A DNA stretch of 64,000 nucleotides from Desulfomicrobium sp. ZS1 (GTDB lineage Bacteria > Desulfobacterota > Desulfovibrionia > Desulfovibrionales > Desulfomicrobiaceae): assembly GCF_024204645.1 (NCBI RefSeq), contig NZ_CP100351.1:2692001-2756000 (forward strand). Direction: 5' to 3'. The notes under the pieces were generated by a model. It was not told the origin of the DNA. It did no database searches and saw only the letters and a program-made list of their open reading frames with translations. The position numbers and the translations under genes are program-made. Shown piece after piece: positions 45,823 to 61,376 of the stretch (position 1 is the first letter of the stretch; each line of letters opens with the position of its first letter).

Positions 45823-46092
45823 ATGCGGCCCAAGATCAGAACCGGCTATCCCGTCACCATCCATGGCCAGGCCTTCACCAAGGTCGGCATCGTCTGTGAC
45901 GCCTCCGCCTACGACACGCGGGACACCGTGGAGGTGGTCTATGTGGACGCGGCCTTCAAGGCGCGGCGCACGATCGTGGCCTGGCGGGGCGACCGCTTCG
46001 AATGGAGCGAGCCGTCCTACCCAGGCGTCAATGTCGAAAACGACCCCGACTACGAACTCTACGTGACCACGGTCAAGAACGGCCGCTACTGA
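45823..46092 (+). CDS. Hypothetical protein (89 residues)
   Basis: A small soluble protein I cannot assign. Its sequence (VTIHGQAFTKVGIVCDASAYDTRDTVEVVYVDAAFK) suggests an all-beta fold. AGGAAAA lies about 8 bases upstream of ATG 45823. Its last 7 bases overlap the 3' end of the convergent molybdopterin gene. The 232-bp gap before it shows no other gene. Confidence 0.65.
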   Translation: MRPKIRTGYPVTIHGQAFTKVGIVCDASAYDTRDTVEVVYVDAAFKARRTIVAWRGDRFEWSEPSYPGVNVENDPDYELYVTTVKNGRY

Positions 46093-47987
46093 TCCCTGCG
46101 CTCCAGGCGGCAGCGCTGCTCATAGTACGCGCCGCCCCCGCCCATGTCCGTCTCCACGAACCCGATGATGCGGTTCACCCCGCCTCCCAATTTGCCCCAC
46201 GGCCCACGCCGGTAGACCGCGCAGTCCGGGTGCATGGACTCATCCGCCGCGAGCTGCACCGCGAGCCGCCCAAGCTCCGTGACAAGCCAGCCCGCTCCGG
46301 GCGCGATGCCGAGGCCTTCGAGGGTGCGCGGATGCACCGTCACCACAGGCTCGCCGGTCTGCTCCTCGGGCGGGATCTGGGAATGGACGAAGCGGCGGTT
46401 GATGAGCGTCAAGAGCTGTAGGGGATAGCCACCGTCCACGGTCGTCATCGGCGGGTCCAGGCGGGGAGGCAGGCGGTAAAGCCCGTCCGCGTGTCCGAAG
46501 CGCAGGCCCTCGAAGGCCACCGGCCCGTGGGTGGAGCGGACATATCCCCGGCTGCGCAGCTCTTCGAGGCTGACGTTCAAGGTCGGAGAACCGAGCGCCT
46601 GGCGCAGGGCCTCCTCGGGCCCTGGCAAAGTCACCGGGGGAAAGAGCCGGGCCCCCAAATCGGACAAAATCCGGTAATCCGTGCGCACGCCTGCCGGCGG
46701 CTCCACGGCCTTGGCGCTCAGCTGCACGTATTCGTGCAGAAAGGAGCCGACAACATCCTCCTGTTCAAGCATCAGCGCCACGGGCAGGATCAGGTCCGCC
46801 ACCTCCGCCGTATCCGTCATGAAGGCGTCGGCGACCACGACAAAATCGAGCCCGGCAAGGGCGCGGGCCACCTCGGCCGCCTCCGGGAACTGGTTGGCGG
46901 GGTTGATGCATTCGATCCAGGCCATGCGCACGGGGGGATCTGCGCGGCGGAGTTCCCGAGCCAAATCGGGCATAAGCAGAGTCCGGCCATATGCCGTCTC
47001 CCTCTTCCAGGGCAGTTCGAAGTTGGCCATGGAGCTTAAGCCATAATAGGTTCCGCCGCCGCTTCTGCCCACCTGGCCCGAGAGCATGGCCAGGGCGTTG
47101 ATGAAGCGCACGTTCTGGCCGCCAAAGGAATAGCGTTGCAGACCCCAGCCCAGAAGCGTGGCCACGGGCGTGGCCCCGGCGTAATGGTCCGCCAGCAGCG
47201 CTACATCCGCAGGCGTTGCCCCGCACCACTCCAGAAGCTCTGGCCCGCACCCGGCGAGCAGCTCTTCGAAGCCGGTCAGATCACGGCACGCGACCCCCAC
47301 CTCCGGCGCGATTCCCTGGCGGCGCAGCACCTCGCGCAGCACGGCCGCGGCCAGGAACCGGTCCGTTCCCGGCCTCACGCGCACGAAATGGTCCGTGAAA
47401 CCCTTGGCCGTGTCCTCTCCGGGCGCGATGGTCACCACCGGCACGCCCTTCTTGCGCAGGGCGCGGACCATGGCCGCCATGTGCACCGAGCCACGCGCCA
47501 GATCGCGGCCCCAGTTGATGAGCGCCGACGTGTTCAGGATGTCCGAAATGTCGTTGGTGCGCAGGCAGCCGAAATCTTCCGTGCAGGCCGCTATCCCGGC
47601 CTCGTCGCACAACGACCCGTGCAGGCCGGAGACTCCCAGCCTGCGGAAGAAGAGGTTCGACAGCGCCTTGACCACGCCCCGGTTGCCCGAGCCGCGCACA
47701 TGCAGGATGGAGCGGGGCTCGGCCCGGTACAGGGCAATCTTCTCGGCGCACAGACCCATGGCCTCGTCCCAGCTTATATCCTGCCAGACCCCGTCCACCT
47801 TGAGCCGGGGGGAACGCAGGCGATGCGGACTGCCCAGGCGTCTGCGATGCACATCGAGCTTGGGGCAGACAAAGCCGCGCGTGAAGGGGTGGTCCGGATT
47901 GCCGCGCAGGCGCAGGCCATCCACGCCGCTTTCGGCCACAAGGGAACAGGCATCGGGACAATCGAGGGTGCAGGCGGTGATGGTCAT
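46086..47987 (-). CDS. Molybdopterin oxidoreductase family protein
   Basis: A 633-residue single-subunit enzyme of the DMSO reductase superfamily. A four-Fe cluster is predicted from Cys6, Cys10, Cys14 and Cys41 (CTLDCPDAC ... FVCPK). The molybdopterin-binding core has SGNRGVVKALSN and GGQNVRFINALAMLSGQVGRSGGG; a GSLCDEAG segment may give the metal ligand. The C-terminal molydop_binding domain ends with a VETDMGGGGAYYEQ tail. There is no Tat signal, so it is probably cytoplasmic. ATG 47987 follows GGGAGAATAC. No partner subunit is adjacent; substrate unknown. Confidence 0.85.
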   Translation of the reverse strand: MTITACTLDCPDACSLVAESGVDGLRLRGNPDHPFTRGFVCPKLDVHRRRLGSPHRLRSPRLKVDGVWQDISWDEAMGLCAEKIALYRAEPRSILHVRGSGNRGVVKALSNLFFRRLGVSGLHGSLCDEAGIAACTEDFGCLRTNDISDILNTSALINWGRDLARGSVHMAAMVRALRKKGVPVVTIAPGEDTAKGFTDHFVRVRPGTDRFLAAAVLREVLRRQGIAPEVGVACRDLTGFEELLAGCGPELLEWCGATPADVALLADHYAGATPVATLLGWGLQRYSFGGQNVRFINALAMLSGQVGRSGGGTYYGLSSMANFELPWKRETAYGRTLLMPDLARELRRADPPVRMAWIECINPANQFPEAAEVARALAGLDFVVVADAFMTDTAEVADLILPVALMLEQEDVVGSFLHEYVQLSAKAVEPPAGVRTDYRILSDLGARLFPPVTLPGPEEALRQALGSPTLNVSLEELRSRGYVRSTHGPVAFEGLRFGHADGLYRLPPRLDPPMTTVDGGYPLQLLTLINRRFVHSQIPPEEQTGEPVVTVHPRTLEGLGIAPGAGWLVTELGRLAVQLAADESMHPDCAVYRRGPWGKLGGGVNRIIGFVETDMGGGGAYYEQRCRLERRDQ

Positions 47988-48103
47988 GTATTCTCCCTTA
48001 AGGGCACGCGGTATAGCGGTTCCCGGTTCGTGTTTGCCGTCTGTCGAGAGCAGTACTAATCCCGGCGTTGACGGAAGCCAAGACGGGAGGCAATGGTTCA
48101 TGC

Positions 48104-48565
48104 ATGTCAAACCTTCTTCAGCTGAGCACCCCCAGCCACGAACGGCTCGAAATCCTGGGCCGCGCCGTCAGTGAGCCACGTCACGGCACGCCCCTCTATC
48201 TGGACCGCATCTCGGCCGGTTTTCCGTCTCCGGCCGACGACTACATCGAAACGGCCCTGGACCTGAACACCTATCTGATCCGTAACCCCGCCGCCACATT
48301 CATGGTCCGGGTCAGCGGAGATTCCATGACCGGCGCGGGCATCAGCGACGGCGACGTCCTGGTCGTGGACCGCTCCGAACAGCCCGCCCACGGCAAAATC
48401 GTGGTCGCGGTGCTGGACGGGGAACTGACGGTCAAACGCCTGGTCATGAAAAACGGGCAGACCCTGCTCGCCCCGGAAAACCCCTGCTACCAGCCCATCA
48501 CCGTGGGCGAAGGCCAGGACCTGCACGTCTGGGGCGTGGTCACGGGCGTGGTGCGGAAACTCTAG
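48104..48565 (+). CDS. umuD: UmuD-like error-prone polymerase accessory protein
   Basis: A 153-residue S24 self-cleaving protein. The cleavage pair Ala38-Gly39 ([11 protein letters not shown]) is intact, with catalytic Ser74 (SGDSMTGAG) and Lys111 (LTVKRL). After RecA-stimulated cleavage UmuD' should pair with UmuC to form Pol V. ATG 48104 was chosen; GGGAGG lies 13 bases upstream, which is long. I could not find a standard LexA box in the 116-bp divergent gap. Confidence 0.92.
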
Positions 48566-50910: not shown

Positions 50911-51002
50911 CAGCGATGTTTTTTGTCTTACAGGACTGGACAAAAGCCGCAGTCCGACTTAGCTGTATGACGTTTTCCAGATCAATTCGGGAGGATTCGG
51001 TC

Positions 51003-51335
51003 ATGATCAACAAAAGAAGATCACCACGCAAGGCCAGTCTGGAGCGTTGCAGCGTGGAACTGTACGCATCGTCCAAAGGCCCGTTCGAGTCCCGCATCGT
51101 CAACTACAGCGACACGGGCCTGATGATCGAAATGGACCAGCCCCTGACCCGGGGAGAGCCTGTGAAAATCCTCTTCCACCCCGGAGCCGAAAACGCGCTG
51201 CGGCTCGGCGAAACCTACTGCGTAGGCATGGTCCGCTGGTGCGCCCCGCAGGAAGGTCTGTTTTCGAGCAGGTACGGAGTCGGCCTGGAAATGGCACAAG
51301 CCTCCGCCAGAAGAAAGAACTTCCGAGCGGCCTGA
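51003..51335 (+). CDS. PilZ domain protein
   Basis: A 110-residue single PilZ-like domain. The N-terminal RRSPRK stretch resembles the RxxxR c-di-GMP-binding motif, followed by NYSDTGLMIEMD, which corresponds to the D/NxSxxG motif. ATG 51003 has GGGAGG 8 bases upstream. It may answer c-di-GMP changes, for example those set by the HD-GYP protein elsewhere in the window, but target unknown. Confidence 0.8.
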   Translation: MINKRRSPRKASLERCSVELYASSKGPFESRIVNYSDTGLMIEMDQPLTRGEPVKILFHPGAENALRLGETYCVGMVRWCAPQEGLFSSRYGVGLEMAQASARRKNFRAA

Positions 51336-51644
51336 ACGTTGTCTGATTCTGGACGTTAACGACAAATTTAAAAGACCGGATTACGGCCTGTAATTTTTTT
51401 TTGCCCCGCGCCAAACCAATCCTGACATCACCGCGAACTCATCAGAGAAACAAAGCAACCCATGACCACATGGCGATGCTTTTTCTATTCCATCACGAAG
51501 CATTTCTCCCGTCATAACTTCGAATCTCCTGGAACTGCCCGCAACCCCATACTCCGATAATTTTCCCAATCGCCTTTACGTCCGGCGAATAATCATCGTA
51601 TGGGCCATCAATATACGTCCTTAAAATATTGACGGAGACAGGCC
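51336..51644. other. Gene-free stretch before the HPP gene
   Basis: 309 bp, AT-richer than the flanks. I see no gene, repeat or convincing terminator. The promoter of the HPP/Mo/FeS operon should lie in its last 100 bp. Confidence 0.5.
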
Positions 51645-52484
51645 ATGATCGAAATCCGGCTGGTACTGCCGAACAGGCGCGAATTCAGGCGAGACCTTTA
51701 TCGACCCGGAGTCATCTCCCTGTCGAGAATCCTGTGGGGCTCCACGGGCGCGGGGCTGTTTCTGACGCTCATCGCCCTGGCCTGCGACGCCACCGGCGTC
51801 AGCGTGCTCTATCCCCCCCTGGCCGCGACCTGCTTCATCGGCGCAACCTGCACCTACCTGCGCGTGGCCCGGCCCAAATCGGTCATCGTCGGCCATTTCA
51901 TCTCCGCCGTGGGCGGTCTGCTGGGCGTCGCAGCAGGCGAGGCGATGTTTGGCGGCACAGACCTTGCCATCCCCGCCAAACTCGGCCTGGCCGTCTTTTT
52001 TTCGGCCGTGTTCATGCAGATCCTGGACGCCGACCATCCCCCGGCCGCTGCCACCGCAGCCATCCCGGCCATCCTGCCGCTGCCGGTCCCGGCGGCCATG
52101 CTGCCCCTGCACATGGCCTGGGGCGCGGTCCTGGCCGTGGTCTTCACCGTGGTCTGGAACCGCGTCTGGTTCGAATGCCCGGCCCCGGACGAAGGCTGCC
52201 CACGATCATGGCTCAACCTGGGCATGGACAAGCCCGACATCGCCGGCACGGGCATCTGCGTTCTCGCGTCTCTGCTCATGTGCGCCAAACCGTGGAGCGA
52301 GGGCGTCTATACCGCAGGACTCTGGGTCATGTCGGCCGGGCTTGCCGTCATGTCCCTGCATCATTTCTTCGGCGCGCGGGTGCTGGTCGCGCGGGCGGAT
52401 AAATGCCCTGCCGCAGCGCCGATATTGGGCAGATCCGGGCCCATTCCCGGGTCAAACACGAAGGAGGAGAAACATGAACAGTAA
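51645..52484 (+). CDS. HPP family integral membrane protein
   Basis: A 279-residue protein with about five to six transmembrane helices and the eponymous HPP motif in ILDADHPPAAATAAIPAI. The HPP family includes plastid and cyanobacterial nitrite-transport proteins; many members are uncharacterised. GGAG lies before ATG 51645. Its 3' end overlaps the start of the molybdopterin gene by 11 bases, so the two are translationally linked. That coupling suggests anion or substrate transport for the oxidoreductase, which is inference. Confidence 0.85.
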   Translation: MIEIRLVLPNRREFRRDLYRPGVISLSRILWGSTGAGLFLTLIALACDATGVSVLYPPLAATCFIGATCTYLRVARPKSVIVGHFISAVGGLLGVAAGEAMFGGTDLAIPAKLGLAVFFSAVFMQILDADHPPAAATAAIPAILPLPVPAAMLPLHMAWGAVLAVVFTVVWNRVWFECPAPDEGCPRSWLNLGMDKPDIAGTGICVLASLLMCAKPWSEGVYTAGLWVMSAGLAVMSLHHFFGARVLVARADKCPAAAPILGRSGPIPGSNTKEEKHEQ

Positions 52485-54603
52485 ATGGATTCCCACCGTG
52501 TGTTACCATTGCAAGGCCGAATGCCCCATTCTGGCCCGGGTCGAGGACGGCGTGCTCAAGGAAATCCGGGGCAACCCCAGGGCCAGGGGCAAGGCCTGCG
52601 TCAAGGGAATGGCCGGAGTATCGCTGGAGTACAGCCCCGACCGCCTGACTCGGCCCCTGAAACGGGTCGGCAAGCGCGGCGAAGGCAAATTCGAGCCATG
52701 CTCCTGGGACGAGGCCCTGCACGCCATCACCGGGAAGCTCTCAGACCTGCGCGACCGGGGGGATGCGCACAAGCTCACGGCCAGCTTCTTCCCCCACTCC
52801 ATCTCCGACCCCAAATGGCGTTTCCTGAATGCCTACGGCGGCTTCATCAACACGGCCCTGCCGCACTGCGACTCGGCCAAGATCGTGGCCTGCATCAAGG
52901 CCATGGGTGGCGTGCCCAATCATCACATCCCGCCCAACTTCGCTTCCGTGCCGAGGGGCGGGGTCGTCATCCTGGCCGGCCGCCACGCCATGGGCTGCCT
53001 TGATGACGCGGCCGTGCCCCGCGATATTTTGAACGCCAAGGATCGCGGCGCCATCCTCGTGGTCATCGACCCGATCTTCACCGCCGACGCGGCCAAGGCC
53101 GATTGGTGGATCCCCATCAGACCATCCGGGGACACCGCCCTGTTCACGGGCATGACCCATCACATCGTCATGAATGGGCTCTACAACAAGGGATTCGCTC
53201 ATAACTGGATCCGCGAGGGCGACTTCGAAAAGCTCCGGGTCTATCTGGCGGACAAGACCCCCGAGGCCATGAGCAAAATCTGCGATGTCCCGGCCCAGGA
53301 CATCGTGAAGCTGGCCGAGATGTGCGCCTCGGCCCCGTCCGTTGGCGTGGACAGCTTCAAGGGCATCATGCTCGGCCAGGCCCTGGACTTCGGCCATGCC
53401 TGGACCAACTTCCTGGCCGTGACCGGCAACATCGACAACCCCGGCGGCCAGCCCCTGCCCGACCTGACCCCGCTCTCCCCGGTCCTCCCGGCTCCGGCCG
53501 GCCCGGATCTGGCGGCAAAGGGGTGGCACCGCACCGGGCCGGACAAGGACACATTCGGCAAATATTCCTTCATCATGGAGCCGACCTGGTACGAAGCCCA
53601 GGCCATCAAGAACGGTGACCTGAAAGTCCTGATCACGGCGGAGTGCAACCCGGCCCTGACCGAGATGGGTCAGGAAGAATGGCGCAAAGCCGTGACCATG
53701 ACGAACGACAAGGGGGAGTATCAGCTAGAAATGCTGGTCAGCTACGAGATCATGCTCTCCGATACCGCGAGGTACGCCGACTATGTGCTTCCGGACAAAA
53801 GCTACTTCGAGCGCTGGGAGCTGCTCTACATGCCGTGGTGGTACAACTTCGGCCATGGGGTGGCCCTGCGCCAACCGGTGGTCGAAGCGCCGGGCGAATG
53901 CAGGCACTCCAACGAAGTCTTCATCGAACTCGGCAAGCGTCTGTGCCCCGAATACTTCGCCTTCAAGGACGACCTGGAATACTACGACATCCAGCTGGCG
54001 GGCCTTGGCCTGTCCGTGGACAAGCTGCAAGAAATGGGCGGGATCTGGTCGCCCGGAACCACGGGCTTTCGCAAATACGAGCAGAACGGTTTCGGCACCC
54101 CGAGCAAAAAAGTCCATCTGTATTGGGAGGACCTGAAGGACGTAAACCAGGCCATGCCGCGCGTGGGTCTGGCCCCGGAATACGAGGCCAACGCCGGGGA
54201 ATTCCCCTACATCCTCATCTCCTACAGGACCATCTTCCACCAGGGCTCGGGCCAGTGGACCCACAACAACCCGCAGCTGCGCGACCCCATCGGCGGGCTC
54301 ATGGAAAACCCATTGCTCATCAACACGGCCACGGCCAAGAAGCTCGGCATCGAGGACGGAGCGTTGGTCAGCGTGCGCTCCCGAACCGGCAAGCTCAAAG
54401 TCCGGGCCAAATGCACCGAGCGCATCCGACCTGATTGTCTGGGTCTGCATCACGGATTCGGCGCCACTGTCGGCCGGGTGGCAGTACTTGGCGAAGGAGT
54501 CAGCGACAACATCCTCATCCCGGATGCGGGCATGACGCTCGACTGGCAGGATGTCGTCGGCGGAGAATCGCACGTGTCCACCCGCGTCACCGTGGAAGGA
54601 TGA
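52474..54603 (+). CDS. Cytoplasmic molybdopterin oxidoreductase catalytic subunit (PhsA/PsrA-like)
   Basis: A 709-residue catalytic subunit of the complex iron-sulfur molybdoenzyme type. A four-Fe cluster is given by Cys10, Cys13, Cys17 and Cys42 (CYHCKAECP ... KACVKG). LPHCDSAKIV (Cys132) is the probable metal ligand. The molybdopterin core includes GNIDNPGGQ and SDTARYADYVLPDKSYFERWE, with a C-terminal binding domain. There is no Tat signal, unlike exported thiosulfate, polysulfide or DMSO reductases. ATG 52474 follows AAGGAGGAG. It is followed 12 bases later by its ferredoxin subunit. The substrate is unknown; candidates are sulfur compounds or other inorganic acceptors. Confidence 0.87.
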   Translation: MNSKWIPTVCYHCKAECPILARVEDGVLKEIRGNPRARGKACVKGMAGVSLEYSPDRLTRPLKRVGKRGEGKFEPCSWDEALHAITGKLSDLRDRGDAHKLTASFFPHSISDPKWRFLNAYGGFINTALPHCDSAKIVACIKAMGGVPNHHIPPNFASVPRGGVVILAGRHAMGCLDDAAVPRDILNAKDRGAILVVIDPIFTADAAKADWWIPIRPSGDTALFTGMTHHIVMNGLYNKGFAHNWIREGDFEKLRVYLADKTPEAMSKICDVPAQDIVKLAEMCASAPSVGVDSFKGIMLGQALDFGHAWTNFLAVTGNIDNPGGQPLPDLTPLSPVLPAPAGPDLAAKGWHRTGPDKDTFGKYSFIMEPTWYEAQAIKNGDLKVLITAECNPALTEMGQEEWRKAVTMTNDKGEYQLEMLVSYEIMLSDTARYADYVLPDKSYFERWELLYMPWWYNFGHGVALRQPVVEAPGECRHSNEVFIELGKRLCPEYFAFKDDLEYYDIQLAGLGLSVDKLQEMGGIWSPGTTGFRKYEQNGFGTPSKKVHLYWEDLKDVNQAMPRVGLAPEYEANAGEFPYILISYRTIFHQGSGQWTHNNPQLRDPIGGLMENPLLINTATAKKLGIEDGALVSVRSRTGKLKVRAKCTERIRPDCLGLHHGFGATVGRVAVLGEGVSDNILIPDAGMTLDWQDVVGGESHVSTRVTVEG

Positions 54604-54615
54604 AGGAGGCAAACC

Positions 54616-55173
54616 ATGAAACAATTAAGTCTCGCCATTGACCTGGACCGCTGCATAGGCTGCAAGACCTGCGTGGCGGCCTGCCGCAACTATCACGGCC
54701 TTACAGACCACGCCACGGACGTGCCGGGCATGATTCCCTATTACCTGCGCGTGGAAAGCGACCGCCAGGGCACCTACCCGGACATCGCCATCCGTTCCTG
54801 GGTCATGCCCTGCCAGCACTGCAAGAACGCGGCCTGCATCAAGGCGTGTAAGGCCGAAGCCATCGTCAAGGATACTGAGACCGGCATCGTGCGCATCCTG
54901 GCGGACAAGTGCCGGGGCAGCCGCGACTGCATCGAGGCCTGCCCGTACGGAGTCATCCAGTTCGACGCGGCCAGAAACAAGGCCCACAAATGCGACCTGT
55001 GCTGGGACCGGGTGCATGTGGGCGAAAAGCCGGTCTGCGCCGAGGTCTGCCTGACCGACGCCATCCGCTTCGGAGAAAAGGAAATCCTGAAAATGGAGCT
55101 TGAGGCCGAGGGCAAGGAAATCGTGAAAAAGATGAGCGCCCAGTCCATACTCTACTTTCGCACGCCCAAGTAA
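54616..55173 (+). CDS. Four-cluster ferredoxin-like subunit (PhsB/NrfC type)
   Basis: A 185-residue iron-sulfur protein. Four cysteine clusters are visible: CIGCKTCVAAC, CQHCKNAACIKAC, a CRGSRDCIEACPYG unit and CDLCWDRVHVGEKPVCAEVC. This is the standard electron-transfer subunit of molybdoenzymes such as polysulfide and formate dehydrogenases. A good ribosome-binding site (GAAGGAGG) lies upstream of ATG 54616. No NrfD- or cytochrome-type membrane subunit follows. A 12-bp hairpin stands after its stop. Confidence 0.92.
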   Translation: MKQLSLAIDLDRCIGCKTCVAACRNYHGLTDHATDVPGMIPYYLRVESDRQGTYPDIAIRSWVMPCQHCKNAACIKACKAEAIVKDTETGIVRILADKCRGSRDCIEACPYGVIQFDAARNKAHKCDLCWDRVHVGEKPVCAEVCLTDAIRFGEKEILKMELEAEGKEIVKKMSAQSILYFRTPK

Positions 55174-56342: not shown

Positions 56343-59003
56343 TCATTCAGGCTCGATACGCACCGCGCAGACCTTGAACTCCGGAATCCTGGCCGCCGCG
56401 TCGTGGGCGGAATTGGTCAGCACGTTGGCCGCCGCCTCGGCGAAATGGAAAGGAATGAAAACCATGCCCGGCGCGACCCGGTCCGTCAGCAGGGCCGTGA
56501 CCGTGATCTCCCCCCGCCTCGACGCGACACGGACCTGCTGGCCGGATACGATTTGAAGCCGCTTTGCATCCTCCGGATGAATCTCTGCCTGGCATTCGGG
56601 CACGAGCCTGTTCAGCCCCTCGTTTTTGCGGGTCATGGTGCCGGTGTGGTAATGCTCAAGCACCCGGCCGGTACTGAGCAGAAAAGGATAGTCCGCGTCC
56701 GGCATCTCCGCCGGGGCTTGCGGATGCGTGGCTACAAAACGCCCCCTGCCCCGGGGAAAGGTCTCGCGGTGCAGGATGGGGGTGCCGGGATGGGCCGCAT
56801 CCGGACAGGGCCAGATAAGGCCCTCCCCCTTGATGCGCCGGTAGTCGATGCCGCCGTATATGGGCGCGGCCAGAACGATCTCGCGCATGATCTCCCTGGG
56901 ATGATCATACCCCATGGATACGCCCAGACGCGGTCCCAGAAGATTCAAAATGCGCCAGTCGGGAAGCGCCTGACCCGGACACGGCACTGCCGAACGCACG
57001 CGCTGCACACGGCGGTCGGTGTTGGTGAAGGTGCCGTCCTTTTCCAGCGCGGACGCCGCAGGCAGAACCACATCGGCCAGCCGCGCCGTCTCGGTCAGGA
57101 AAATGTCCTGCACGACCAGAAAATCAAGGCCCGCCAGCCGGGCCTGCACATGGGAGACGTCCGCATCCGACACGGCAGGGTTCTCGCCCATGACGTACAT
57201 GGCCCGGACCTGCGGAGTGGCGAACATCTCCGTGGCGGTCAGGCCGGGATTCTTGGACAGCGACGTCTTCCACAGGCTTTCCATCCGGCCCAAAACAGCA
57301 TCGTCGTCCACCCGCCCGTATCCGGGCAAGACGCCCGGCAAGCCGCCCATATCGCAGGAGCCCTGCACGTTGTTCTGCCCCCGTAAGGGGTTGATCCCCG
57401 CCCCCGGCCGCCCGACCTGGCCGCAAAGCAAGGCCAGATTGGCCAGGGCCAGCACCGTGTCCGTGCCGCAGGTGTGCTGGGTGATGCCCATGCAATACAG
57501 GATCGTCGCCGCCCCGGCGCGGGCATACAGGCGAGCCGCCCGCGTAAGGTCGGCGGCGGGAATTCCGGTCACGGACTGTACGTATTCAGGGGTATATGGC
57601 CCTAACGCTTCGCGCAATTCCTCGAACCCTTCGGTGCGGCTATCGATGAAGGCACGATTTTCCAGGCCTTCGCGCAGGATGACGTGCATGAGCCCGTTGA
57701 TCCAGGCGATGTCCGTGCCGGGCCTCGGCCGCAGCCAGAGATGGGCATGGCGAGTCAGGCCGATGGCGCGCGGGTCCACGACCACAAGCGTAGCTCCGGA
57801 GCGAGCCGCGCGCTTGATGCGGCTTGCGAACACGGGGTGGGTCTCGGTGGTGTTGGAACCGGTGACCAGGATCACCTCGGCATTGCCCACATCAGCCATG
57901 GGATTGGTCGCCGAAGCGCTGCCGAAAGCCTCTACCAGAGCCACAAGGGATGAGGCGTGACACAGCCGCGCGCAGTGGTCCACGTTATTGGTGCCAAGAC
58001 ACCGCGCGAGCTTCTGGAACAGATAATTTTCCTCGTTGGTGCAGCGGGCCGAGGCCAGAAAACCCAGGGCCTGCGGCCCGTGCTCTTCACGCACGGCCAG
58101 GAGACGGGACGCCACCATGTCAAGCGCCTCGTCCCACCCGGCAGGGACAAGCTCTCCGTCCCTCCGTATGAGCGGGGTGGTCAGTCGATCGGGATGCGCG
58201 GTGAAATCCAGGGCGAAGCGGCCCTTGACGCACAGGCTGCCTTCGTTATGCCCGTCCTCGGCTCCCCGCACGTGCTGGATGCGACCGCCCTGCACATACA
58301 CATCCATCTGACAGCCCACACCGCAATATGGGCAGGTCGTGCGCACCGGGCGCGTCTCGCACAGGCGCGGCTTCTGACGGGCGTCGACCATGCTGAGCGC
58401 CCCTGTCGGGCAGACCTGCAGGCACTCGCCGCAGAACACGCAGGCCGACTCGGCCAGCGAGGTGTCGCACCCGGCCACGATCTTGGTGGCCGCGCCGCGA
58501 TAGCCGAAGTCGATGGCCTCGTTGACCTGCACCTCGTTGCAGGCCTGCACGCAGCGGCCGCAGAGGATGCATTTGGAAAAATCGCGGACGATGAAGGGGT
58601 TGCCCGTCTCGGGCCGGTAGCGCGGCTTCGTGCGCTCAAAAGTTCCTGTGCCCACGCCGTAACGGTAGGCCAGACTCTGCAAAGTGCAATCACCAGCCGC
58701 CGGGCAGAGCAGGCAGTCGTGATTGCCGGAGTCGAGCATGAGGCGCAGGACCGTCTTGCGGGCGCGGAGCACGCGCTCCGAATCGGTATGCACGATCATG
58801 CCCTCGGACGCAGGCGCCGCGCAGGACGCGACCAGGGTGCGCGCCCCCCAGACCTCCACCACGCAGATGCGGCACGCACCCGTGGGCGTGCAGCCGGGCA
58901 GATGGCACAGGGTCGGAATGAAGATGCCGTGGTCCGTGGCCACTTCGAGAATCGTCTGTCCGGGAGAGAAGACGCACGGCGTATCGTTGATAGTCAGTTC
59001 CAT
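56343..59003 (-). CDS. NAD-dependent formate dehydrogenase catalytic subunit, Cys-type
   Basis: An 886-residue soluble molybdo/tungsto-enzyme. The N-terminal NuoG-like [2Fe-2S] domain has Cys33, Cys44, Cys47 and Cys61. Further FeS motifs follow, including CILCGRCVQAC and CVFCGECLQVCP. The catalytic module has the CPYCGVGCQ cluster and HCARLCHASSLV, where Cys348 is the expected metal ligand in place of selenocysteine. GQNNVQGSCDMG and VLEHYHTGTMTRKN are typical of formate dehydrogenase. ATG 59003 follows GGAGAG. With the two preceding genes it should reversibly couple formate and CO2 to NAD(H), possibly with bifurcation. Confidence 0.9.
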   Translation of the reverse strand: MELTINDTPCVFSPGQTILEVATDHGIFIPTLCHLPGCTPTGACRICVVEVWGARTLVASCAAPASEGMIVHTDSERVLRARKTVLRLMLDSGNHDCLLCPAAGDCTLQSLAYRYGVGTGTFERTKPRYRPETGNPFIVRDFSKCILCGRCVQACNEVQVNEAIDFGYRGAATKIVAGCDTSLAESACVFCGECLQVCPTGALSMVDARQKPRLCETRPVRTTCPYCGVGCQMDVYVQGGRIQHVRGAEDGHNEGSLCVKGRFALDFTAHPDRLTTPLIRRDGELVPAGWDEALDMVASRLLAVREEHGPQALGFLASARCTNEENYLFQKLARCLGTNNVDHCARLCHASSLVALVEAFGSASATNPMADVGNAEVILVTGSNTTETHPVFASRIKRAARSGATLVVVDPRAIGLTRHAHLWLRPRPGTDIAWINGLMHVILREGLENRAFIDSRTEGFEELREALGPYTPEYVQSVTGIPAADLTRAARLYARAGAATILYCMGITQHTCGTDTVLALANLALLCGQVGRPGAGINPLRGQNNVQGSCDMGGLPGVLPGYGRVDDDAVLGRMESLWKTSLSKNPGLTATEMFATPQVRAMYVMGENPAVSDADVSHVQARLAGLDFLVVQDIFLTETARLADVVLPAASALEKDGTFTNTDRRVQRVRSAVPCPGQALPDWRILNLLGPRLGVSMGYDHPREIMREIVLAAPIYGGIDYRRIKGEGLIWPCPDAAHPGTPILHRETFPRGRGRFVATHPQAPAEMPDADYPFLLSTGRVLEHYHTGTMTRKNEGLNRLVPECQAEIHPEDAKRLQIVSGQQVRVASRRGEITVTALLTDRVAPGMVFIPFHFAEAAANVLTNSAHDAAARIPEFKVCAVRIEPE

Positions 59004-59013
59004 GGTCTCTCCG

Positions 59014-60852
59014 TCAGTCGATGCAGTCAAAAGGACAAGCCGAAAAGCAGGCTAGGCACCGCACGCATTTCTCACGGTCGATGCGGGCGGTCTGTTTTTT
59101 GGCCCAGATCACGGCCCCGGCCGGACATGCCTTGTGGCACAGCCCGCATTTGCGGCAGCGCGACTCGTCCACCTCGAATTTGAGCAGGGCCACGCAGCGT
59201 TTGGCCGGACAGCGCTTGTCCGTGATGTGAGCCTCGAATTCGTCCCGGAAATGGCGCAGAGCCGACAAAATTGGATTGGACGCGGTCTGGCCCAGGCCGC
59301 ACAGGGACGCGTCGGTGATGACGGCGGCCAGATCTTCCAGGGTGCGCAGATCACCGGGCTCGCCCCGTCCTTCGCAGATGCGGGTCAGGATTTCGAGCTG
59401 CCGTCTGGTCCCTTCCCGGCAGGGCGTGCACTTGCCGCAGGATTCGTCCTGGATGAAATCCATGAAAAAGCGGGCCATGTCGACCATGCAGGTGCGGTCG
59501 TTCATGACGATGACCCCGCCCGAGCCCATGATGGCTCCGGCCTTGGCGATGGCCTCATAGTCCACGGGCGTGTCCAGCAGGTGCGCCGGGATGCTCCCGC
59601 CGGACGGGCCGCCGAGCTGCACGGCCTTGCATGTGCGCTTGCCGGGCACCCCGCCGCCGATGTCGTTCACCAGCACGGACAGGGGTGTGCCCATGTCCAC
59701 CTCAACCAGCCCGATGTTGTTCACGTCGCCGGACAGGGCGAAGACCTTGGTACCCTTGCTGCCTTCGGTGCCGATGCTGGCGTAGTGCCCACCGCCGAGA
59801 CGGATGATGCGCCCGACATTTGCCAGGGTCTCGACGTTGTTCAGGACCGTCGGCCTGCCCCACAAACCCTGCTGCGCCGGGAATGGCGGCCGGGGACGGG
59901 GCATGCCGCGCCGGCCTTCGATGGAGCGCATAAGCGCCGTCTCCTCGCCGCAGACAAAGGCTCCCGCGCCCTGGTAGATTTCAAGGTCAAAGGAAAAATC
60001 GCTACCCAGGATGTTCTCCCCGAGAAGGCCGAGTTCCCGGGCCTGCCCGATGGCGACCGTCAGGCGCTGGATGGCCAGGGGGTATTCGGAACGGCAGTAG
60101 ATGTAGCCCTGATGCGCGCCGATGGCCACGGCCGCGATGATCATGCCCTCCAGCACCGCATGCGGGTCGGATTCGAGGATGGAGCGGTCCATGAACGCGC
60201 CGGGGTCGCCCTCGTCGGCGTTGCAGAGCACGTACTTCACATCGCCGGGCGAAGCGGCCGCGAACTTCCATTTCAGGCCCGTGGGAAACCCCGCTCCTCC
60301 GCGCCCGCGCAGGCCGGAAAGGCGCATCTCCTCGATGATGCCCTCCGGCGCCATGTCGAAAAGCGCCTTGACCAGACCCTGGTAGCCGTCATGGGCGATG
60401 GCGTGGCCGATATTTTCGGGATCGATGCGGCCCTTGTTGCGCAGGGTCCAGGGCCGCTGCAGGGCAAAGAAAGGGATCTCGTGCATGGAGGCCACGGCCT
60501 GACCCGCCGGATCACGGTAAAGCAGCCGCTGCACGGGCTCGCCGCCCGCCGAGGCGACCACATCGGCCGCATCCTCGACGCGCACCTTGCAGTACAGGAT
60601 CCCGCCGGGCTGCATAATGACCACCGGCCCCAGGGCGCAGAAGCCATTGCATCCCGTTTCGATGACCTGCACGCAGCCCCCCTGCCGCGCGACCTCCTCG
60701 CGCAGGGCCGCGATGAGCGGGATGGAGCCTGTGGCGTGGCAGCCCGTACCGCTGCAGCAGAAGATGCGCGGCGCGGCCGTGTCCAGAAGCGCCTTCTCCC
60801 GGCCCCGCAGGGCCAGGAGTCCGGCGCGGTCGATTTTACCTGACGCGTTCAT
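59014..60852 (-). CDS. NuoF-like NADH/FMN subunit of formate dehydrogenase
   Basis: A 612-residue fusion. An N-terminal thioredoxin-like domain (CCSGTGCHATGS ... CNGFCALGP) is followed by the NuoF core with RGRGGAGFPTGLKWKF (NADH site), EGDPGAFMDRSI (FMN site), GAGAFVCGEETALM, and ESCGKCTPCREGTRR for its four-Fe cluster. Two C-terminal ferredoxin-type clusters close it (CRKCGLCHKACP, CVRCLACFSACP). This layout occurs in NAD-linked formate dehydrogenases and bifurcating hydrogenases. Overlap of 4 bases with the NuoE-like gene shows operon coupling. Confidence 0.92.
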   Translation of the reverse strand: MNASGKIDRAGLLALRGREKALLDTAAPRIFCCSGTGCHATGSIPLIAALREEVARQGGCVQVIETGCNGFCALGPVVIMQPGGILYCKVRVEDAADVVASAGGEPVQRLLYRDPAGQAVASMHEIPFFALQRPWTLRNKGRIDPENIGHAIAHDGYQGLVKALFDMAPEGIIEEMRLSGLRGRGGAGFPTGLKWKFAAASPGDVKYVLCNADEGDPGAFMDRSILESDPHAVLEGMIIAAVAIGAHQGYIYCRSEYPLAIQRLTVAIGQARELGLLGENILGSDFSFDLEIYQGAGAFVCGEETALMRSIEGRRGMPRPRPPFPAQQGLWGRPTVLNNVETLANVGRIIRLGGGHYASIGTEGSKGTKVFALSGDVNNIGLVEVDMGTPLSVLVNDIGGGVPGKRTCKAVQLGGPSGGSIPAHLLDTPVDYEAIAKAGAIMGSGGVIVMNDRTCMVDMARFFMDFIQDESCGKCTPCREGTRRQLEILTRICEGRGEPGDLRTLEDLAAVITDASLCGLGQTASNPILSALRHFRDEFEAHITDKRCPAKRCVALLKFEVDESRCRKCGLCHKACPAGAVIWAKKQTARIDREKCVRCLACFSACPFDCID

Positions 60853-61376
60853 TCGTAGCCCTCCAAAATTTCACAGGCCGAATCGGGCGTGACCCCGCCG
60901 TGGGTGTCACGGTCCACGACCATGACCGGAGCCAGACCGCACGCGCCCAGACAGCGCACCGGCTCCAGGCTGAAGCGACCGTCTTCGCACGTGCCCCCGG
61001 CCTTGACGCCGAAGCGGCGCTCCACCCGGTCCAGCACCTCGCGCACACCGCGCACATAGCAGGCCGTACCTGTGCAGACGCGGATGTTGTGCCGCCCTTT
61101 GGGTTTCAGGGAGAAGAGGGAATAAAAGGAGATGACGCCATAAACCGTGGACAAGGGCTGATTCATCCCGCTCGCGATATGCCCTATGAGTTCGAGCGGA
61201 AAATATCCGACAATGTTCTGACAAAGCCGCAAAACAGTGATAAGAGAACCTTGTGTGTCACGGTGCGCGGCGATAATGGCGTCTGCCTGGGCAAACTGTG
61301 CGGGGGTGAGTGGGCTCAAGGGGGAACTTCGTTTTTTGAAGGTTTTCGGGTTCAAGCTAAGTAGGCCATAATGCAC
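60849..61376 (-). CDS. NuoE-like [2Fe-2S] subunit of formate dehydrogenase
   Basis: A protein of up to 175 residues. The thioredoxin-like [2Fe-2S] domain has the usual four cysteines in CTGTACYVRG and CLGACGLAP. The helical N-terminal region includes LITVLRLCQNIVGYFP and STVYGVISFYSLF. The start is uncertain: GTG 61376 opens the frame; a downstream TTG is possible. It is the first gene of the operon and diverges from the FUSC gene, so the operon promoter must lie in or beyond 61377-61541. Confidence 0.9.
   Translation of the reverse strand: MHYGLLSLNPKTFKKRSSPLSPLTPAQFAQADAIIAAHRDTQGSLITVLRLCQNIVGYFPLELIGHIASGMNQPLSTVYGVISFYSLFSLKPKGRHNIRVCTGTACYVRGVREVLDRVERRFGVKAGGTCEDGRFSLEPVRCLGACGLAPVMVVDRDTHGGVTPDSACEILEGYE

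Follow-up and report, generated by a model that had tools for sequence, protein, structure and literature searches.

The locus considered here raises the question of what an HPP-family membrane protein does in an operon that otherwise encodes a molybdoenzyme and its iron-sulfur partner. The window, meaning the whole stretch of 64,000 nucleotides that was analysed, corresponds to positions 2692001-2756000 of the complete 3.87-Mb genome of Desulfomicrobium sp. ZS1, and the operon in it consists of three genes:

51645-52484, + strand: HPP-family membrane protein, 279 aa (PF04982, 82.2 bits against a cut-off of 27.2)
52474-54603, + strand: Mo/W-bisPGD catalytic subunit, 709 aa (Molybdopterin, Molydop_binding and Fe4S4 domains)
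54616-55173, + strand: DmsB-like poly-[4Fe-4S] subunit, 185 aa (Fer4_11)

A preliminary description of this DNA had the catalytic subunit starting within the HPP gene and a ferredoxin-type gene following it, with neither an NrfD/cytochrome anchor nor a Tat signal, and all four points were borne out. The ATG of the Mo gene, with GAAGGAGGAG just before it, lies inside the HPP gene, and the shared 11 nucleotides (52474-52484) are an ordinary operon overlap. Pfam searches of the genes adjoining the triple, a PilZ gene (50916-51335) on one side and an Lcl_C protein gene (from 55337) on the other, revealed no NrfD or cytochrome gene. The N-terminus of the Mo subunit, MNSKWIPTVCYHC, carries no Tat or Sec leader, none is visible among its aligned orthologues, and an export leader is absent from both enzyme subunits. 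On either side of the triple, less than 10 kb away, the window also encodes another bisPGD enzyme (46086-48110, about 674 aa) and an NAD-linked formate dehydrogenase/hydrogenase-like gene set of NuoE/F/G type (56343-61376). We propose that the operon encodes a two-part unit, consisting of a channel and a soluble Mo/Fe-S enzyme, for one small, probably monovalent anion, and we assign this reading a probability of roughly 0.6.

The catalytic subunit belongs to the DMSO reductase family (Mo/W-bisPGD) by its Pfam domains (PF04879, PF00384 and PF01568) and by whole-length fold matches, and it possesses an N-terminal [4Fe-4S] site and C132 as the expected Mo ligand. PsrA came first both by sequence and by whole-length fold (solved structure 2vpw, 26% identity), with a Z of 32.5 over 658 residues for the AF2 model. 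The Mo-ligand cysteine of PsrA aligns with C132 and its His145 with H108, while H131-C132-D133-S134 is invariant among the orthologues (C132-D133 in 49 sequences). Acetylene hydratase and the formate dehydrogenases rank close after PsrA, and the fold is thus silent on the substrate. The subunit reached the cut-off of no curated reductase model: the PhsA equivalog model gave 255.2 bits against a cut-off of 694, the nitrate reductase models NasC and NapA gave 153 and 58 bits against 1100 and 930, and a formate dehydrogenase identity conflicts with the invariant C132-D133, since those enzymes carry Sec/Cys-His at the metal (the aligned place in FdhF, 7qv7, reads LCHAP). Nitrate reductases have C-M at the Mo ligand, unlike the C-D of this subunit, which counts against a nitrate reading. 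The preliminary description had suggested a phylogeny of the catalytic subunit, and a tree that included other bisPGD enzymes grouped its orthologues into a single clade of their own with a long stem, outside the PhsA/PsrA clade; a tree uniting them with PhsA/PsrA was not rejected (p-AU 0.19). Compared with PsrABC and PhsABC, the catalytic-subunit fold, the cysteine Mo ligand and the poly-[4Fe-4S] partner are alike, whereas the window system has neither Tat signal nor NrfD anchor, and HPP, or FNT in the operons of relatives, is found instead.

Of the 22 genomes of the family, 10 had an orthologue of the Mo subunit; at the level of the order the count was 35 of 297, and outside it orthologues were few (6 of 395 phylum genomes). 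Named genomes contributed 37 loci, most of them from Desulfovibrionales and Desulfobacterales. They are 59-97% identical to the window protein and no other protein passed E 1e-90, so that the family is sharply bounded. A single genus can hold orthologues at 60, 69 and 90-97% identity together, which suggests horizontal transfer. The HPP subfamily occurs in 37 of the 297 genomes of the order, and 25 genomes have both it and the Mo gene where 4.4 would be expected (hypergeometric 1e-19, with genomes counted as independent and kinship ignored). A survey of such gene triples, also suggested earlier, confirmed that HPP is conserved with the pair, as it lies in the operon at 27 of 51 orthologous loci and the subfamily is found in 25 of the 35 genomes with the Mo gene.

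The remaining loci proved informative on the role of the membrane protein. Mapping by tblastn of the 51 distinct Mo orthologues assigned HPP as operon partner to 27, FNT to 23, neither to one and both to none; related rows among these distinct sequences are not independent, and changes counted along the tree are the more reliable measure, namely seven of the FNT label, at least five of them on well-supported branches. HPP lies upstream of the enzyme genes in 13 loci (Desulfomicrobium and others) and downstream of the Fe-S gene in 14 (Desulfovibrio, Nitratidesulfovibrio and others), while the FNT gene (PF01226, 145-147 bits) lies upstream in loci without HPP. The nearest solved relatives of these FNT proteins are NirC and FocA-type channels. 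Given that the unrelated HPP and FNT alternate in one operon, the same transport task is the best explanation, and judged from this exchange an anion channel is favoured over a redox anchor. The arrangement resembles NirC and FocA with NirBD or formate hydrogenlyase in that an FNT channel feeds or drains a cytoplasmic oxidoreductase; by contrast, FNT of the relatives stays under the cut-offs of the curated fnt, FocA and NirC models (58-99 bits against 232-293) and the enzyme comes from another family.

Membership of the window protein in the HPP family is indicated by its passing the Pfam gathering score and by the HPP motif, D128-A-D-H-P-P, which is invariant in an alignment of 23 relatives (A1), as are PLAATCF, HPPAAATA, H84, H131 and H156. 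No PDB chain related to it by sequence was found, and comparison of the fold (AF2 model, pLDDT 80.6) with solved structures gave nothing convincing, the best Foldseek match having an E of 0.21; VIA-align ranked the plant anion channel AtALMT1 first (Z 5.8, 158 residues, 5.3 A), a match too weak for reliance. For AtNITR2;1 of the same family, PMC4137279, citing Maeda 2014, gives measured nitrite transport with a Km of 13 uM in a Synechococcus without nitrite transport. The window protein shares PF04982, the HPP motif and the core helices with AtNITR2;1 and the cyanobacterial HPP nitrite transporters but is longer, having a C-terminal extension with two extra helices, and differs in its operon partner, a redox enzyme. 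The long form matches PF04982 far more weakly (82-84 bits) than the two canonical HPP proteins of the genome do (203-210 bits). The genes of the latter (L001 and L002; G000:C1:424529 and 2216393) each stand with CBS-domain, ABC ATPase and flavodiiron-like genes in an almost duplicated cassette, the last of these being presumed from a motif. Taken together with the exchange for FNT, the HPP protein of the operon is probably a small-anion channel.

The Fe-S subunit scored 107 bits with the DMSO_dmsB model, under the cut-off of 214, and a motif survey found a serine in place of cysteine in one of its cluster motifs, CRGSRDC (window 54910-54950). This serine variant is found in HPP-type Desulfomicrobium loci and cysteine in FNT-type Pseudodesulfovibrio. 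At loci L043-L051 and L070 an insert interrupts the subunit near the cluster that reads CRGSRDC in the window. The insert of L043 consists of Fer4_20 plus Pyr_redox_2, an FAD/NAD(P)H module akin to NADPH-dependent GltD-type proteins. Such a module in the Fe-S subunit of some relatives indicates that electrons can come from the cytoplasm. In the mechanism that we propose, HPP (FNT in relatives) would let the anion through the inner membrane, and a soluble heterodimer of the Mo/W-bisPGD and poly-[4Fe-4S] subunits would convert it in the cytoplasm with electrons from a cytoplasmic carrier, either ferredoxin or, where the module is inserted, NAD(P)H; a quinone-reactive anchor would then not be needed. 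The preliminary description had suggested substrate import coupled to cytoplasmic reduction. Import and conversion gain support from the exchanges of HPP for FNT and from the NAD(P)H module that some Fe-S subunits have acquired. We infer that HPP conducts the anion here, that the flow is inward rather than outward, that the enzyme works as a reductase and that one substrate serves all exchangeable importers.

Most loci have a protein of 460-475 aa upstream of the operon with Sigma70_r2, Sigma70_r4 and NMT1_2 domains (seen at L071:4737-6158 and at 21 other loci of alignment A3), by its domains an ECF sigma factor with a fused sensor of binding-protein type. The best solved relative of the sensor domain is 3UN6 of S. 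aureus (138.6 bits), followed by the NrtC/CmpC domains, and it shares GHHxG, STH, AEP and CC motifs with 3UN6. Between the sigma-sensor gene and the operon lies the conserved promoter motif [GT]AAC[CT]TTTTTC-N9-G.CTCT. This pattern matched 43 times in 758 kb of loci, each time ahead of the operon and on its coding strand, a count that is not a significance because the pattern was built from the same regions and several loci are one contig in two collections; the absence of matches elsewhere in the loci is nevertheless telling. The window, L005, L007 and L014 lack both the sigma gene beside the operon and the promoter motif, and no 3UN6-type sigma-sensor gene was found anywhere in the window genome. 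Alignment of the upstream regions of these four Desulfomicrobium loci revealed a conserved element just upstream of HPP:

51575-51620, + strand: conserved block with two TACGTCC copies

The block is probably a regulatory region replacing the ECF promoter of the relatives and the site of a replacement regulator. A literature search poor in subscription journals returned no paper on ECF-NMT1 fusions or on the HPP-Mo-FeS triple.

The HPP subfamily has a second home. It also occurs in 11 genomes that lack the Mo gene, with G007, an incomplete genome, as one more. In those 11, HPP follows a CooS-like protein and stands beside a GAF/sigma-54 activator. The order of clade-B CODH-like gene, long HPP and activator is fixed in these Desulfovibrionales (L107-L117, for example L109:6016-10816; the contig of L117 begins at the HPP). 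Two CODH-like copies and a DUF169-like gene were seen in L110-L112. The CooS-like protein scores 477-492 bits, at the CODH cut-off of 478. Its N-terminus is rich in His, and Glu (DIQE) stands where a count along the canonical CODH motifs places the second C-cluster cysteine, a combination that in Inoue et al. 2019 (PMC6344411) marks structural group B-1. That study found clade-B CODHs adjoined by NitT/TauT ABC transporters whose binding protein is a homologue of 3UN6, and suggested that they import nickel. A CODH-like protein without HPP, at L135, is accompanied by an ABC ATPase, a permease and an SBP that matches both the sigma-sensor (3e-20) and 3UN6 (3e-18). The CODH-like gene and NitT-type importer of this locus (L135:1156-8531) also adjoin genes that we take to be YedE-like, YedF-like and DUF3343-like, a possible selenium or sulfur link. 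CooS-V, a deviant CODH of another group, shows no CO turnover and slow hydroxylamine reduction (PMC9311411).

The clade-B systems (PMC6344411) and the Mo loci are alike in that an anaerobic oxidoreductase stands beside an importer and a 3UN6-type binding protein is involved, and the same HPP subfamily adjoins the CODH-like protein in Desulfovibrionales. They differ in the enzyme, which is unrelated and of prismane/CODH fold without molybdopterin, and in the regulator, GAF/sigma-54 there and an ECF sigma-sensor at the Mo loci. The idea that genomes have either the Mo gene or clade-B CODH was considered and dropped, as the overlap of 0 between 35 and 13 of 297 genomes gives p = 0.19. Importers (HPP, FNT, ABC), enzymes (Mo, clade-B CODH-like) and sensor fold are cross-connected as if one substrate were shared, and the two enzymes may indeed have one in common with the three importers and the sensor fold, probably a small anion with nitrite/nitrate first. 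We regard the triple as one variant of a broader anion module. At somewhat under even odds, we extend this to a single unrecognised anaerobic pathway, in which HPP, FNT and the 3UN6-type ABC would be unrelated importers of one small anion, the Mo enzyme and the clade-B CODH-like protein unrelated cytoplasmic enzymes for it, and a one-component ECF sigma regulator with a binding-protein sensor domain its read-out.

As for the identity of the anion, the overlap among the known ligands or cargo of HPP, FNT and NrtA-type proteins makes nitrite or nitrate the best candidate, a tentative choice short of an even bet; formate/bicarbonate, sulfur anions and cyanate remain as others. A nitrogen-oxide hint is an HPP gene of D. 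desulfuricans that rises in the NO response (+1.75), within a gene run ending with hcpR1 (PMC5701242). Both canonical HPPs of the genome have a flavodiiron-like gene nearby. NapA was found in 0 of 58 genomes at the threshold used, and NrfA is missing from most FNT-type genomes, which rules it out as an obligate partner; nothing obvious thus handles nitrite further.

The same gene arrangement would be expected if the substrate entered otherwise and HPP or FNT served as the exit for an anion (for instance nitrite, hydrosulfide or formate) that the cytoplasmic enzyme produces and that is toxic or waste. FNT channels conduct both ways, and where NrfA is missing a nitrite product would need an exit. 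We nonetheless consider export unlikely, for the clade-B CODH loci have an ABC importer with a binding protein in the same place (L135; PMC6344411), pointing inward. It is less probable still that HPP, FNT and the 3UN6-type ABC supply a metal or metal oxyanion rather than the substrate, nickel for clade-B CODH, as already proposed (Inoue et al., PMC6344411), and molybdate or tungstate here, in keeping with MobA-like and FmdE/MoeA-like genes near some Mo loci. These neighbours occur at few loci. The same sensor fold governs a nickel-free enzyme, and nickel does not fit the Mo loci. Metal transport is not known for either FNT or HPP, which also counts against such a supply. The preliminary description had further offered a new type of membrane partner, in which HPP would pass electrons between quinone and the Mo/Fe-S pair. 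This has become very improbable: the HPP gene does occupy the place of an NrfD-type anchor and H84, H131 and H156 are invariant in the membrane part, but HPP has been exchanged repeatedly for a cofactor-free channel family, accompanies an unrelated CODH-like enzyme where no Mo subunit exists, and belongs to a system in which relatives have an NAD(P)H module within the Fe-S subunit. An adjacency due to chance or history alone, with no joint function, which concentration of the orthologues in one phylum and joint spread by horizontal transfer might have produced, can hardly be credited when the operon was kept through shifts of HPP position and repeated exchange and the HPP subfamily exceeds its expected number in Mo genomes so far.

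An anion channel paired with a soluble Mo/Fe-S enzyme would provide a functional setting for three orphan groups, namely the long HPP proteins, the bounded clade of soluble bisPGD enzymes and the clade-B CODH-like proteins, for which nickel import was proposed in 2019. With exchangeable importers and a regulator whose ligand-binding domain is separable, a soluble protein and a simple ligand screen should suffice to find the substrate. Should this prove to be nitrite or a similar toxic anion, sulfate reducers would possess a route for it in the cytoplasm that is missing from present models.
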